Shown here one piece after another: positions 7,610-14,220 of a stretch of 64,000 nt of DNA (the first letter of the stretch is position 1; every line of letters starts with the position of its first letter). Below the pieces are notes generated by a model. The model was not told the origin of the DNA. It was given only the letters and a program-made list of their open reading frames with translations, and searched no databases. Both the position numbers and the translations under genes were made by a program. This stretch comes from Trichocoleus desertorum NBK24 (GTDB lineage Bacteria > Cyanobacteriota > Cyanobacteriia > FACHB-46): positions 2,184,628 to 2,248,627 of the forward strand of contig NZ_CP116619.1 of the NCBI RefSeq assembly GCF_030409055.1, written 5' to 3'.

Positions 7610-7771
7610 AATAGAAGCAGAAATCTTCGTACTGTGCAGGGCTTCAAATTGGCGAGAACTTTTTGAAGATTAGAGAAATTTGTGTAGTCGCCAAAAGTAT
7701 TCAAAGTGAATCGTGATTAAGCTTGAAGCGCTGGGTACTACTAGCAAAAACACGATTAGGAGTAAAGCACT

Positions 7772-8923
7772 GTGGGGCAGTTATTCGATCGCATAAGCCG
7801 TGTAGCCCGAGCTGAGCTGAACTCTAGTAAAGGTAATTACGAGAAAGATTACTTGAATGGAGGAGCTGCCTTAATTGCTGGTGGAGCAGTTGCAGGTGCT
7901 TCGATTGGCAAGGTTGGAATCTTGGCAGGTGGGGCAGGCTACAGCCTGGGTGCGGCTCCACTCGCTGCTGCTGGTGCGTTGACAGGTGCCGCTCTTTATG
8001 AAGCGTTGCGATCGCTTCTTGAAAACGATGCTTCCTCTGCTAGTGCTGCGGCGATCGGAGCAGCGACAGGTGCAGCCACTTCAGCAGCGATCGGAGGCGT
8101 GGGTGTAGCGGTTGGTGGCAGTGCGATTGGGGTTGGAATGGCTTCAATGGCGGCAGGTGGAGCCGTGGTTGGTTTGGGTCTAGTAGGATTAAATCGTCTG
8201 CTTCAACAAGGCACTGATCCAGAAAAGCTTCTGGATAGTGCGATCGCGCAAATGGAAGCAGACGCACGGGATGCACGGCAAGCAGCCATCAATGCAATTG
8301 CTAGCCAAAAGCGACTTCAGCAACAGTACGAACAGGCACAGGCGGAAGTTAATAAATGGCAACGACGGGCACACTTGGCCCTGCAAAAAGGAGATGAGTA
8401 TCTGGCACGGGAAGCGCTGATTCGCAAGAAAACGCACACTAGAACTCTTAGCAGCCTGAAATCTCAGCTCAATCAAGAATCACCTTCGGTTAAGAACCTC
8501 AAGCAGAATCTAATACTTCTAGAAGCCAAAATCTCTGAAGCAAAAATAATGGAAACCGTCTTGAAGGCTCGGATTGCGACTACTAAGGTAAATGAGCAAC
8601 TGCAAAGCACAGTAGGTCAGATAGGTACCAATAGTGCAATGGGTACTTTTGAGCGCATGGAAGAAAAAGTACTGCAAATAGCAGCGCGATCGCAGGCAGC
8701 GGAATTGGTCGGTAGTAGCTTAGAAGAGCAATTTGCCAGACTAGAGGCAGGTAGTGATGTTGATGACGAACTGGCAGCAATGAAAGCACAGTTACTCGGC
8801 TATCCCCAACAATCTCAGTCACAGTTTCCTGATTCTGAACCCTCAAATAGTCTTTCTAGCAATGCATTAGTTGATGCGGAACTGGAGGATTTGAAACGAC
8901 AGCTTGATTCGCTTGATGCCTAA
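7772..8923 (+). CDS. PspA/VIPP1 (IM30)-like protein with an inserted glycine-zipper membrane domain
   Basis: PspA/IM30 proteins are ESCRT-III relatives that bind and remodel membranes. Residues 1-18 (MGQLFDRISRVARAELNS) are the amphipathic helix 0 of that family, and residues from 148 (TDPEKLLDSAIAQME) onward are its helices 1-5, including ASQKRLQQQYEQAQAEVNKW, ALQKGDEYLAREAL and NEQLQSTVGQIGTNSAMGTFERMEEKV. Normally helix 0 runs into the DPEK segment after a few residues. Here about 128 residues (19-147) are inserted, almost all Gly, Ala, Val, Ile and Leu, with many GxxxG steps and a short charged break at 77-90. This looks like a pair of glycine-zipper membrane hairpins. The C-terminus ends in ELEDLKRQLDSL. 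The GTG start has AGGAG 9 bases upstream. A normal vipp1 gene is presumably elsewhere. Confidence 0.9.
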   Translation: MGQLFDRISRVARAELNSSKGNYEKDYLNGGAALIAGGAVAGASIGKVGILAGGAGYSLGAAPLAAAGALTGAALYEALRSLLENDASSASAAAIGAATGAATSAAIGGVGVAVGGSAIGVGMASMAAGGAVVGLGLVGLNRLLQQGTDPEKLLDSAIAQMEADARDARQAAINAIASQKRLQQQYEQAQAEVNKWQRRAHLALQKGDEYLAREALIRKKTHTRTLSSLKSQLNQESPSVKNLKQNLILLEAKISEAKIMETVLKARIATTKVNEQLQSTVGQIGTNSAMGTFERMEEKVLQIAARSQAAELVGSSLEEQFARLEAGSDVDDELAAMKAQLLGYPQQSQSQFPDSEPSNSLSSNALVDAELEDLKRQLDSLDA

Positions 8924-9090
8924 CGATTCAGAGAATTGGGAATGAGCTGAAAGATGGGTTGTAGATGTGGGCGATCGCCCAAGCTTCATCATGGTGAGTT
9001 GGTATAGGATACATCGTGACACCAAGAGAGATAGAGTATAAGCCAATCGTCAACTTCGTTAGTGGACACCTCACGCCAGCCAAGTATCAA

Positions 9091-9495
9091 TCAAGGTACA
9101 CAAATCACACCCAACCCAGCCATTTGCCGAATATGCTCATCAAAAGCTAGGACTTGTGGTACTCCTAGACGCTGAGACATCACCAATAACGAGCAATCGG
9201 TATAGCTCCAGCGTTTATCATCGTAGCGGCAGAAAACTTCCCAAATCGCTGCATCGTCGGTTTCCGTCAATACAACATAGCGATGTTCTTCTCGTAAGAC
9301 CCGCCCAATTTCAATTGAGCTTTTAGTGGAAACCTTGGTTCGGAGCCAAGTTACTGTTTCATCAAACACAGAAGACAGAATGATCCAGCGAATTGCTGGA
9401 TTTTGCAAAACATATTGACGAACCGCTGCATGATGCCGTTCTGATTTTACAAAAAAGGCAATTAAGGCCGAAGTGTCAGTGAGAATTTCAGGCAT
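9091..9495 (-). CDS. VapC-type PIN-domain ribonuclease toxin
   Basis: A PIN-domain protein of 134 residues. The acidic residues expected for the metal site are visible: Asp7 in LTDTSALIAFF, Glu in FDETVTW, Asp in YTDCSLLVMSQ and Asp in AFDEHIRQMAG. PIN toxins cleave RNA, often initiator tRNA or rRNA. The gene starts 8 bases after the stop of the antitoxin-like gene on the same strand, the standard antitoxin-toxin order. The target RNA cannot be read from sequence. Confidence 0.85.
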   Translation of the reverse strand: MPEILTDTSALIAFFVKSERHHAAVRQYVLQNPAIRWIILSSVFDETVTWLRTKVSTKSSIEIGRVLREEHRYVVLTETDDAAIWEVFCRYDDKRWSYTDCSLLVMSQRLGVPQVLAFDEHIRQMAGLGVICVP

Positions 9496-9503
9496 TAACC
9501 GCT

Positions 9504-9770
9504 TTAGTACAACACGTCATCTACATGTTCAGCATAGTTGGTGTGAATTACACCTTCTCCACTCTGCTCAGCGAGGTCAGACTGGTTAGGATTAGCAACC
9601 TCTAGAGTCCCTGCAAGTTGCCAAGTCCGCGTTTGAGTCATCAAAAATTGGTTGCGCTCTACCTCAACATATTGTTGCAACACCCGCACAACAAGCTCTT
9701 GCACAGGCTCCCCCAGTTGTTCAAGTTGAGAAGCCAATTCATCAGGAACCTCAACGATTAGTTGTGCCAT
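9504..9770 (-). CDS. VapB-like antitoxin
   Basis: An 88-residue acidic protein directly upstream of the PIN toxin gene. The N-terminus IVEVPDELASQLEQLGEPVQELVVRVLQQYVEVER resembles a ribbon-helix-helix-type dimer region, and the acidic tail probably binds the toxin. The antitoxin call rests mainly on gene order and size; the exact antitoxin family was not recognised. Confidence 0.7.
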   Translation of the reverse strand: MAQLIVEVPDELASQLEQLGEPVQELVVRVLQQYVEVERNQFLMTQTRTWQLAGTLEVANPNQSDLAEQSGEGVIHTNYAEHVDDVLY

Positions 9771-11582: not shown

Positions 11583-13739
11583 TTAGAACCGCTGCCCTAG
11601 ACCGAACTGTAGGCGATCGTCTCCTTGATCATTAATACCGTAATCAGCCCGAATGATGCCCAGAGGCGACTTCACTCGTACTCCCAGCCCATAGCCAAAT
11701 CCTGTCCCTGGTTTGTCTCGTACTGCCCCTGGGTCGCCAGGAACTGTACTGCCAGAGCCTAAATCGGAAGCAAAGTCCGCAAACACTACCCCACTCACAG
11801 GCGATGCCAAGATGGGAATGCGGTACTCCGCTGAGGCTAAAACGTAACTGCGACCTGTAGCAACTTCCCCTTGTCCGTAACCGCGCACTGTATTCGGGCC
11901 ACCCAAGTTGAAAGCATTGTAGGGAGGCAGATCACCGATTGTGGTTCCTCCTTGCAAGTTGAAGGCAAAGACTTCTGGCTCTTTCTCGCTAGAGTTGATG
12001 ATGCGAGTGGGGACATACTGTGTGTAGTTGGCTTGTAGTCGATTCGAGAGAATATTGCCCTGACCTACAGGAACCGATTGAGCAGTGCTGAGAGTCAGAA
12101 CTGAACCATCGGTTGGGTTTACAGGATTGTTGCGGCGATCGCGCGTGGCCCCAAACGAAACCGTCGTCAGATCATCAATGCCTGTACCGCTGAAGGAAAG
12201 AGGATTGCCAAGTTCGTCCACGGGGGAAATATTACCTTCGCTGTCCCGGATGCTGGTGCGGGTATAGTTTAGCCCTACAGAACCTTGCCAGTCTCCCAAC
12301 GGTCTTTGGAGCGTGACGCCACCCCCAAACTTACCTTCGCGAACTTTGTCGCCGTTGGGTAGCCCAATATCTTCGTTAAACGTGGAGGAAAGACCTCGTT
12401 TGCGGAAGGTATCTACTTGATAACCAATCTTGTCAGGTTGGCTGGCACGGTAAGGACTCTTGAAGTTGGCATCAAACTGCACATCTCGGCGACCGACCAA
12501 CACATTGCCACCGACGCTTTGGCCTACACCGCCAATGTTTTGGTCTTGGTAGTTGACGGTGCCATATAGCCCGCTGTCCTCGCTGTAGCCAGCTCCCACG
12601 TTTACCGCTCTGGGCGGACGCTCTGAGAGATTGTAAGTGACATCCACCTGCCGCGAATCACCATCTAAGGTAATTTCGGCATTATCGAACAAGCCTAGTT
12701 GGTAGAGGCGCTGTAAATCTTGCCGCACCACGTCTTCTCGGAAGGCTTGCCCTGGTTGCAACTGGATTTCTCGTCTCAGAAATGATTCTTGAGTTCTACC
12801 TTGAATCGTTTTGCCTTCTTCATCGACGGTTTCTCCCTCGTTATTTACAAAGAGGAAGTTGATTTTACCAACCGTTCCTTCCGCTACTTCTAGAGTCACG
12901 ACCCCGTTCTGGCTAGGTTCAATGGCAATGACTCTGGCTAAGGAGTAACTATTTTTCTTGTACCACTCGTTAACATTGCGTCCCGCTTGGTCGAGGGCGG
13001 CGGGACTCGCTGGAGCACCTAACTGAGCAGCAAATAATTCTTGGGCGATCGCGGGGGTGAGTACTTTGGCCCCAGTCAGTTGCAGCAATCGCACCACCAC
13101 TGGCGTGACTTGATAGGTGACATCCAAGCCCGAAGGATTACTACGGCTGCTGACCCTTGCATTGGCAAATAGCCCTGTACTCAAAATGCGGCTCACATCA
13201 TCTTGCAACTGGCTTTGGCTCGTGTTGCCACCTAGGCGAGTGCGAATCACATTTTGGATGATTTGTTGCAGTTCTGCATCGGCTCCTACGATTTGCACAT
13301 CCGTGGCAGTAACGACCAAATCACCGTTGGTCGCGGGTGGTGTGGTTGCACGATTGGGCGTAGCGGCGACTTGAGGCTTAGGAGCGATCGCGTTAGAACC
13401 TGTAGGCTTTGGAGCAGAGGGTGTGGGGAAGGCGGCAGGCTGAGTCGCAGGCTTAACGGGCGCAGTTGGGACTACGACAGCGGGTTGATATTGCTGATAA
13501 TACTGAGCGCTGTCGCTCACCTGGGTCGTATTCTCTGAAAACTGCTGAGCAACTAGAGTTTCTGGAGGGGCGATCGCTTCTACGGGAGTGGGGGCAGTAG
13601 TTTCAGCAGGAACGACAAAGTTGCTGGCTGTAGGCTGTGGGGCGACGGCTTTCGGTGCCTGACCAGCACTCGCTTGGTGAGTTAAATCCCAGCCCGCCAC
13701 AGCAGCTAGGGTACAAAGTGCAAGAGTTGGGACACGCAT
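11583..13739 (-). CDS. Omp85/BamA-family outer membrane protein
   Basis: This is the cyanobacterial relative of BamA and chloroplast Toc75, which inserts or translocates proteins at the outer membrane. Its order is a signal peptide (MRVPTLALCTLAAVAGWDLT, cut near ASA-GQ), a long Pro/Ala/Thr/Gln-rich linker, POTRA repeats (from VTATDVQIVG; further units at VRLLQLTGAKVLTPA and VGKINFLFVNNEG), and a C-terminal 16-strand barrel (from RAVNVGAGYSEDSG) ending in LQFGLGQRF with the outer-membrane terminal Phe. The VRGYGQGE stretch in the barrel is the conserved loop-6 VRGY motif. The frame extends to a TTG at 13760, but the ATG at 13739 gives a clean signal peptide. The kinase gene follows 37 bases later. 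Confidence 0.9.
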   Translation of the reverse strand: MRVPTLALCTLAAVAGWDLTHQASAGQAPKAVAPQPTASNFVVPAETTAPTPVEAIAPPETLVAQQFSENTTQVSDSAQYYQQYQPAVVVPTAPVKPATQPAAFPTPSAPKPTGSNAIAPKPQVAATPNRATTPPATNGDLVVTATDVQIVGADAELQQIIQNVIRTRLGGNTSQSQLQDDVSRILSTGLFANARVSSRSNPSGLDVTYQVTPVVVRLLQLTGAKVLTPAIAQELFAAQLGAPASPAALDQAGRNVNEWYKKNSYSLARVIAIEPSQNGVVTLEVAEGTVGKINFLFVNNEGETVDEEGKTIQGRTQESFLRREIQLQPGQAFREDVVRQDLQRLYQLGLFDNAEITLDGDSRQVDVTYNLSERPPRAVNVGAGYSEDSGLYGTVNYQDQNIGGVGQSVGGNVLVGRRDVQFDANFKSPYRASQPDKIGYQVDTFRKRGLSSTFNEDIGLPNGDKVREGKFGGGVTLQRPLGDWQGSVGLNYTRTSIRDSEGNISPVDELGNPLSFSGTGIDDLTTVSFGATRDRRNNPVNPTDGSVLTLSTAQSVPVGQGNILSNRLQANYTQYVPTRIINSSEKEPEVFAFNLQGGTTIGDLPPYNAFNLGGPNTVRGYGQGEVATGRSYVLASAEYRIPILASPVSGVVFADFASDLGSGSTVPGDPGAVRDKPGTGFGYGLGVRVKSPLGIIRADYGINDQGDDRLQFGLGQRF

Positions 13740-14220
13740 AACAGTCACTTCGTTTATCAATCTGGGTTTAATGGGTCACAACAGGCTTTTCTCGCCATGC
13801 CTACAACAACATTTGCTTACTAATGAATTGGGTTCAGCGCCAACACTGCCCTCTATTCTGCCTTGACCTTTGCTTGACCTTGAAGGAGCAAGCTCTCAAT
13901 TGATATAAGGTCGCAGAAATACATTAATTACTTTATTAACTGTTAAAAAACTCACAAACAAGTCCCATGATTTAGCAATATGCTAAACCTCCACACCACA
14001 AACTTAAGTTTGAACAGCAAATGTTGTCTAGTAACCTGAGCGAGCAGGAGTTGCAGCTATGAGCGCTGCCATTGAGTATCTGGCAACGTGATTAGCTTTG
14101 TTCACTTTGACTGCAACCCAGCTCATCAGGTTCCAGGCTGCTGCAATCGGCATCGGGTTAGCTCTACAACTGGCTACAACCTACAACCCACTGTCCTGTA
14201 ATTGTCCTGTAATCTAGCAT
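13740..14220. other. Intergenic region between omp85 and the DUF2062 gene
   Basis: Both flanking genes read on the minus strand, so this holds the omp85 promoter and the DUF2062 gene's downstream region. AT-rich DNA lies at 13910-14000. A tandem repeat sits at its left end. No gene was seen. Confidence 0.5.
14192..14213. repeat. Tandem duplication of an 11-bp unit
   Basis: TGTCCTGTAAT occurs twice in exact head-to-tail copy, 7 bases beyond the stop codon end of the DUF2062 gene. Its role is unknown; replication slippage is the simplest origin. Confidence 0.8.

Follow-up and report, generated by a model that had tools for sequence, protein, structure and literature searches.

ESCRT-III-like proteins are usually soluble and are recruited to membranes. 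The window analysed here, 64,000 nucleotides of the cyanobacterium Trichocoleus desertorum NBK24 (contig NZ_CP116619.1), encodes a protein of this kind in which a long segment rich in glycine and alanine separates the first helix from the coil, and this raises the question of where such a protein comes from and what the additional segment does. The first-pass annotation had proposed that the segment embeds the protein in the bilayer or, alternatively, binds another membrane protein.

Layout, parentage and distribution of the fused protein

The gene (7772..8923, + strand) runs from a GTG at 7772 to a TAA at 8923 and encodes 383 amino acids, an extent matched by orthologues of the same architecture, and direct reading places a Shine-Dalgarno-like AGGAG (7758..7762, +) 9 nt upstream of the GTG. 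Sequence comparison establishes the following order, all on the + strand. An alpha0-like amphipathic helix (residues 1-18, 7772..7825), whose hydrophobic moment of 0.60 compares with 0.63 in canonical VIPP1, is followed by a variable linker (residues 19-27, 7826..7852) and by a two-repeat glycine-zipper module (residues 28-147, 7853..8212). The VIPP1 alpha1-alpha3 hairpin with the start of alpha4 (residues 148-290, 8213..8641), the alpha4/alpha5 tail with its FERM motif (residues 291-341, 8642..8794) and a flexible linker leading to the VIPP1-specific alpha6 (residues 342-383, 8795..8920) complete the protein, and the Pfam domain PspA_IM30 covers residues 140-340 (model 14-217, E 1e-41). The reading frame and its homologues uphold the description of a PspA/VIPP1 protein split by a Gly/Ala insert.

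The window protein ends in alpha6 (VDAELEDLKRQLDSL; alpha6 profile E 5.4e-7), and its coil is about 61% identical to the VIPP1 encoded in its own genome. In the tree, 19 full-length zipper sequences cluster (87/89) among the VIPP1s, outside the PspA-like branch (100/100). Because alpha6 is retained and the coil is nested among VIPP1s, the parent, judged by sequence, is specifically VIPP1, and PspA is ruled out. Foldseek matches the AlphaFold2 (AF2) model of the coil to the VIPP1 structures 6zvr and 8qbw (ring and filament; E 1.5e-11). For one Nostocaceae copy, G793, the coil falls inside the Nostocaceae VIPP1s (100/100), and a single shared origin of all fused coils was rejected by an AU test against the forced grouping (p 0.006), a post hoc test picked after inspection of a tree that contains long branches. 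Together, these two results suggest module swapping, and the G793 copy may be such a swap rather than a new insertion. Elsewhere in the window genome, outside the window, an LRAT domain (E 8e-26) is joined to a partial PspA hairpin (L016 1144-1842, G000:C1 about 2724127).

Whole-genome and contig searches recovered matching architecture and junctions from no fewer than 15 further genomes of cyanobacteria, and about nine Nostocaceae carry more divergent copies, mostly of 376-394 aa. The fused form was present in 14 of 390 Cyanobacteriia genomes in one draw, while the zipper profile matched 44 genomes in a 386-genome draw of the phylum, all in the window's own class. Nothing except the odd layout speaks for an assembly or sequencing fusion, and such an artefact, which the annotation had named as a refutation, is excluded: the genome of the window consists of one contig, and identical junctions recur in independent genomes and collections. 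The fused gene is an accessory one that genomes can lose: G001, of the same genus as the window genome, does not have it, and altered copies include one with a stop and a split coil that is apparently broken (G461), one in which 37 aa of the hairpin are absent (G002) and one with a shortened zipper (G641). A canonical full-length VIPP1 is also present in 22 of 22 carriers, with a further PspA-like paralogue in nearly all of them, and the coexistence with normal vipp1 that the annotation had proposed to count indicates that the fused form supplements VIPP1 and does not replace it.

A glycine-zipper module with several carriers

The module (28% Ala and 23% Gly in the window protein) is a tandem repeat of a unit of about 57 residues (hhalign probability 98.8, E 8e-17), with repeat 1 at about residues 31-86 and repeat 2 at about residues 89-147. 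All 54 sequences share the Asp at its centre, and its other charges are nearly limited to the central loop and the C-terminal end, the window type adding one Lys in the first turn. Among 13 orthologues, pairwise identity is 80% in the zipper, 62% in the alpha1-alpha4 region and 28% in the linker. The zipper, helix 0 and the tail have the lowest pN/pS ratios (0.25-0.27), a rough measure given far-diverged synonymous sites.

The many GxxxG steps first noted in the insert are there, nine of them, but they are not in excess of what its composition predicts (6.2 expected, P 0.11), and a spacing of seven occurs 11 times where 6.0 are expected (P 0.01, uncorrected across eight spacings). Chance does not account for how well the glycines are conserved, nor for the match to an independent profile of the family. 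Against that profile the window insert scores 81.5 bits; 2000 shuffles of two Gly/Ala-rich modules stay at or below 1.5 bits. A model (A4) that draws solely on stand-alone, WD40-DnaJ and truncated-VIPP1 zippers and leaves out the window type retrieves the window insert at E 3.9e-22 as its sole match in the window genome and, reciprocally, model A2 retrieves the other zipper types down to E 1.2e-21. Neither Pfam nor NCBIfam holds a family that matches the module, the best hit among solved structures (E 0.4) is not credible, and the module is apparently a cyanobacterial domain that has not been described before. A soluble, structurally neutral low-complexity spacer would suit the unremarkable GxxxG count and the low AF2 confidence described below. 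This explanation is nevertheless improbable, as no other part of the protein is so well conserved, the insert is built of defined repeats and its score greatly exceeds those of shuffles, while the linker that adjoins it does vary freely.

Is the module a membrane segment? Its KD19 maximum is 1.71 in the window protein, with a family median of 1.86 and 98% of modules at 1.6 or more, and the two canonical paralogues of the window genome, VIPP1 and PspA, give 0.5-0.7. These values, and charges that sit almost only at the repeat boundaries, agree with weak membrane helices. A KD19 of at least 1.6 is, however, also reached by 32% of background genes, and the flat-sum dGapp of the best 19-mers is mildly unfavourable, at about +3 to +4 kcal/mol. 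Single-chain AF2 predictions, of the kind the annotation had called for, were made for the whole protein and for residues 1-165 with eight zipper sequences as the zipper input; they place helices at about 26-51, 63-84, 90-106 and 125-145 at low confidence (zipper pLDDT 26-48, below 50 throughout). On balance, we grade membrane anchoring by the zipper as likely and no higher.

The same module is found on other proteins. Stand-alone zipper proteins measure 140-190 aa. In proteins of about 560-630 aa the zipper is followed by a VIPP1 alpha4/alpha5 tail (E about 1e-10), WD40 and DnaJ, some members of this family having no detectable tail or J domain, and a zipper-plus-tail form also occurs. Nostocaceae encode truncated VIPP1s of 250-290 aa that consist of H0, zipper and alpha1-3 without the tail. 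At five Nostocaceae loci (L165, L205, L178, L206 and L207), the truncated VIPP1 gene lies on the same strand as a zipper-tail-WD40(-DnaJ) gene and at most about 1.5 kb away, and the two may represent a split VIPP1; at three others with the truncated form (L208, L212 and L213), there is no tail gene within the stretch read. The window-type gene is usually solitary, with one exception adjoining a stand-alone zipper gene (G159), and it has no conserved operon, its neighbours varying between the genomes compared. In the window, two small neighbouring genes (9091-9770, -) resemble a PIN-domain toxin and an antitoxin when their translations are read by eye, and a 725-aa protein (11583-13760, -) looks, also by eye, like an Omp85/BamA outer-membrane assembly factor.

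The presence of the module on stand-alone and WD40-DnaJ proteins, often beside zipper-VIPP1 genes, adds weight to the annotation's alternative of binding to another membrane protein. The zipper could serve mainly for zipper-zipper docking, through which zipper-VIPP1, stand-alone zippers and zipper-tail-WD40-DnaJ proteins would associate laterally and recruit further partners, the Hsp70 system among them, to VIPP1 polymers, with anchoring being secondary. We regard this as possible, though doubtful. It would account for one module on differing, genomically clustered partners, for the five loci where a truncated VIPP1 lies near a zipper gene carrying the missing tail, and for an HPD motif that is intact in 19 of 19 zipper-DnaJ proteins; moreover, a J-protein/Hsp70 pair of Chlamydomonas both assembles and disassembles VIPP1 (PMC10602608). 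It fits less well with the solitary window-type gene, whose genome holds no second zipper match, and with the three loci where no tail gene was seen.

In other clusters, a stand-alone zipper is accompanied by genes for an HNH endonuclease and a WD40-DnaJ protein. The HNH endonuclease gene (about 127 aa, with an amphipathic N-terminus) adjoins or overlaps the stand-alone zipper at L172 1231-2020, L197 7765-8600, L198, L209, L210 and L211; an H0-like helix on these HNH proteins was considered and discarded, as the profile match is not significant despite the amphipathic character. The L197 cluster also encodes a protein of 335 aa (8673-9677) that has no alpha0 but carries two PspA alpha1-3 hairpins and an end resembling alpha6. 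One could speculate from the HNH neighbours, the patchy distribution, the uncharged hairpin repeats and a sub-threshold match of one stand-alone zipper to a Pfam pore-forming domain model (L154, E 0.0084) that the zipper permeabilises membranes as part of a system for conflict or programmed death, in which the VIPP1 core would be a delivery, scaffold or safety device. We consider this unlikely. Neither PADLOC nor PHROGs gave a credible match for the window protein or for one stand-alone zipper, and neither the zipper nor the whole protein was found in the plasmid, phage and viral-contig collections as searched. In addition, the HNH association does not reach the window-type gene, and strong conservation together with a retained polymer core suits a housekeeping role equally well.

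Polymer contacts and a possible built-in tether

In Vipp1, alpha0 is the membrane anchor and is located in the outer leaflet, and its residues R6, E23 and P25 touch other subunits at their FERM region (PMC11919686), while alpha5 is indispensable for the formation of VIPP1 polymers (PMC8281802). The alpha1-alpha5 core of the fused protein retains the residues predicted to make ESCRT-III-type polymer contacts, and the earlier description of an ESCRT-III-like protein holds, with an intact core and an insert that is a real, conserved unit. Equivalents of FERM, F197 and L200 are mostly retained in the eight fused proteins aligned and are all present in the window copy; P25 is also kept in these eight. 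By contrast, E23, retained in 27 of 27 canonical sequences, is lost in eight of eight fused proteins, and the zipper breaks up the continuous alpha0-alpha1 junction of VIPP1. Since E23 is a FERM contact with a neighbouring subunit, its loss points to an altered alpha0-alpha1 junction. In the window copy, alpha0 keeps the equivalents of F4, R6, R9 and R12, but V11 is replaced by Ala (A12), as is E179 (A304), and this intact copy may therefore be somewhat specialised. A zipper-VIPP1 from Cyanosarcina (L053 7995-9050) has no alpha0 and begins at the zipper, which suggests that the zipper is able to stand in for alpha0.

The simplest reading is that the zipper takes over or reinforces membrane attachment while the polymer core is preserved. 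We infer that the zipper inserts into the bilayer and that the protein co-polymerises with VIPP1. Its four weakly hydrophobic helices would probably form two largely uncharged hairpins that pack through their Gly/Ala faces within the bilayer, with alpha0 and the coil staying on the cytoplasmic side. The membrane contact of canonical VIPP1 is a peripheral helix, so the zipper copy would be a permanent seed or tether that sets the sites of VIPP1 polymers on cytoplasmic or thylakoid membranes. For this proposal as a whole, an accessory VIPP1 paralogue held in the membrane by its zipper and seeding or tethering VIPP1 polymers, we see an even chance. A canonical VIPP1 in every carrier tested is what one would expect of an accessory subunit; the weak hydrophobicity of the zipper, its low AF2 confidence and the altered G461, G002 and G641 copies argue against a membrane-held VIPP1. 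A VIPP1 with a built-in, conserved and probable membrane module that coexists with normal VIPP1 is a natural tether candidate for placement at the thylakoid.

More tentatively, the fused protein could belong to a wider ESCRT-III-like system built around a shared zipper. This system would comprise membrane-embedded VIPP1s, a split VIPP1 whose halves (H0-zipper-alpha1-3, and the zipper-alpha4/5 tail on the WD40-DnaJ protein) complete each other in the membrane, and stand-alone zipper partners. Through its J-protein, the polymer would have a route of its own for disassembly by Hsp70, in a role like that of Vps4 for eukaryotic ESCRT-III. The reuse of the zipper on a J-domain protein with a VIPP1 tail points to a specific factor for assembly or disassembly, and the related gene clusters hint at an unrecognised membrane-remodelling system.

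Comparison with known VIPP1 systems

A full-text search of openly accessible literature found no paper that joins PspA, Vipp1 and a glycine zipper, in line with the annotation, which named no described relative of this layout; within that literature, the fused protein is a VIPP1 variant with a previously undescribed layout. A parallel comes from a 2024 survey of the phage shock system, in which PspA_IM30 proteins likewise carry rare additional domains, the fusions (NlpC/P60, PspAA and tandem forms) making up less than 2% of PspA homologues (Ravi et al. 2024, PMC11237479); its text does not contain the word glycine, and the passages considered describe no insertion between alpha0 and alpha1.

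With VIPP1/IM30 (6zvr, 8qbw), the fused protein shares alpha0, the alpha1-alpha5 core with the FERM and alpha5 contacts, the linker and alpha6. It differs by the 120-aa zipper between alpha0 and alpha1, by the loss of E23 and the replacement of the second half of alpha0, and by its coexistence with a normal VIPP1 in all genomes examined. With bacterial PspA, it has the PspA_IM30 domain in common, while alpha6 and its place in the tree set it with VIPP1. HSP70B/CDJ2/CGE1 is a known case of a J-domain protein working on VIPP1 polymers (PMC10602608); the cyanobacterial zipper-tail-WD40-DnaJ proteins differ in bearing a VIPP1 tail themselves, and their link to VIPP1 is putative.

Membrane-integral partners of Vipp1 are already known, namely VIA1/Slr1603 and a PPR-related protein that combines a hairpin with a transmembrane segment (PMC13051332). 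VIA1 has been proposed as the recruiter of Vipp1 to membranes, and a 2026 review notes that its suggested function leaves recruitment to thylakoid membranes unexplained (PMC13051332). The distinction from the zipper is one of architecture: VIA1 has winged helices and the PPR-related protein has only the alpha1/2 hairpin, both being separate proteins, whereas zipper-VIPP1 would unite a membrane anchor and a full polymer subunit in one chain.
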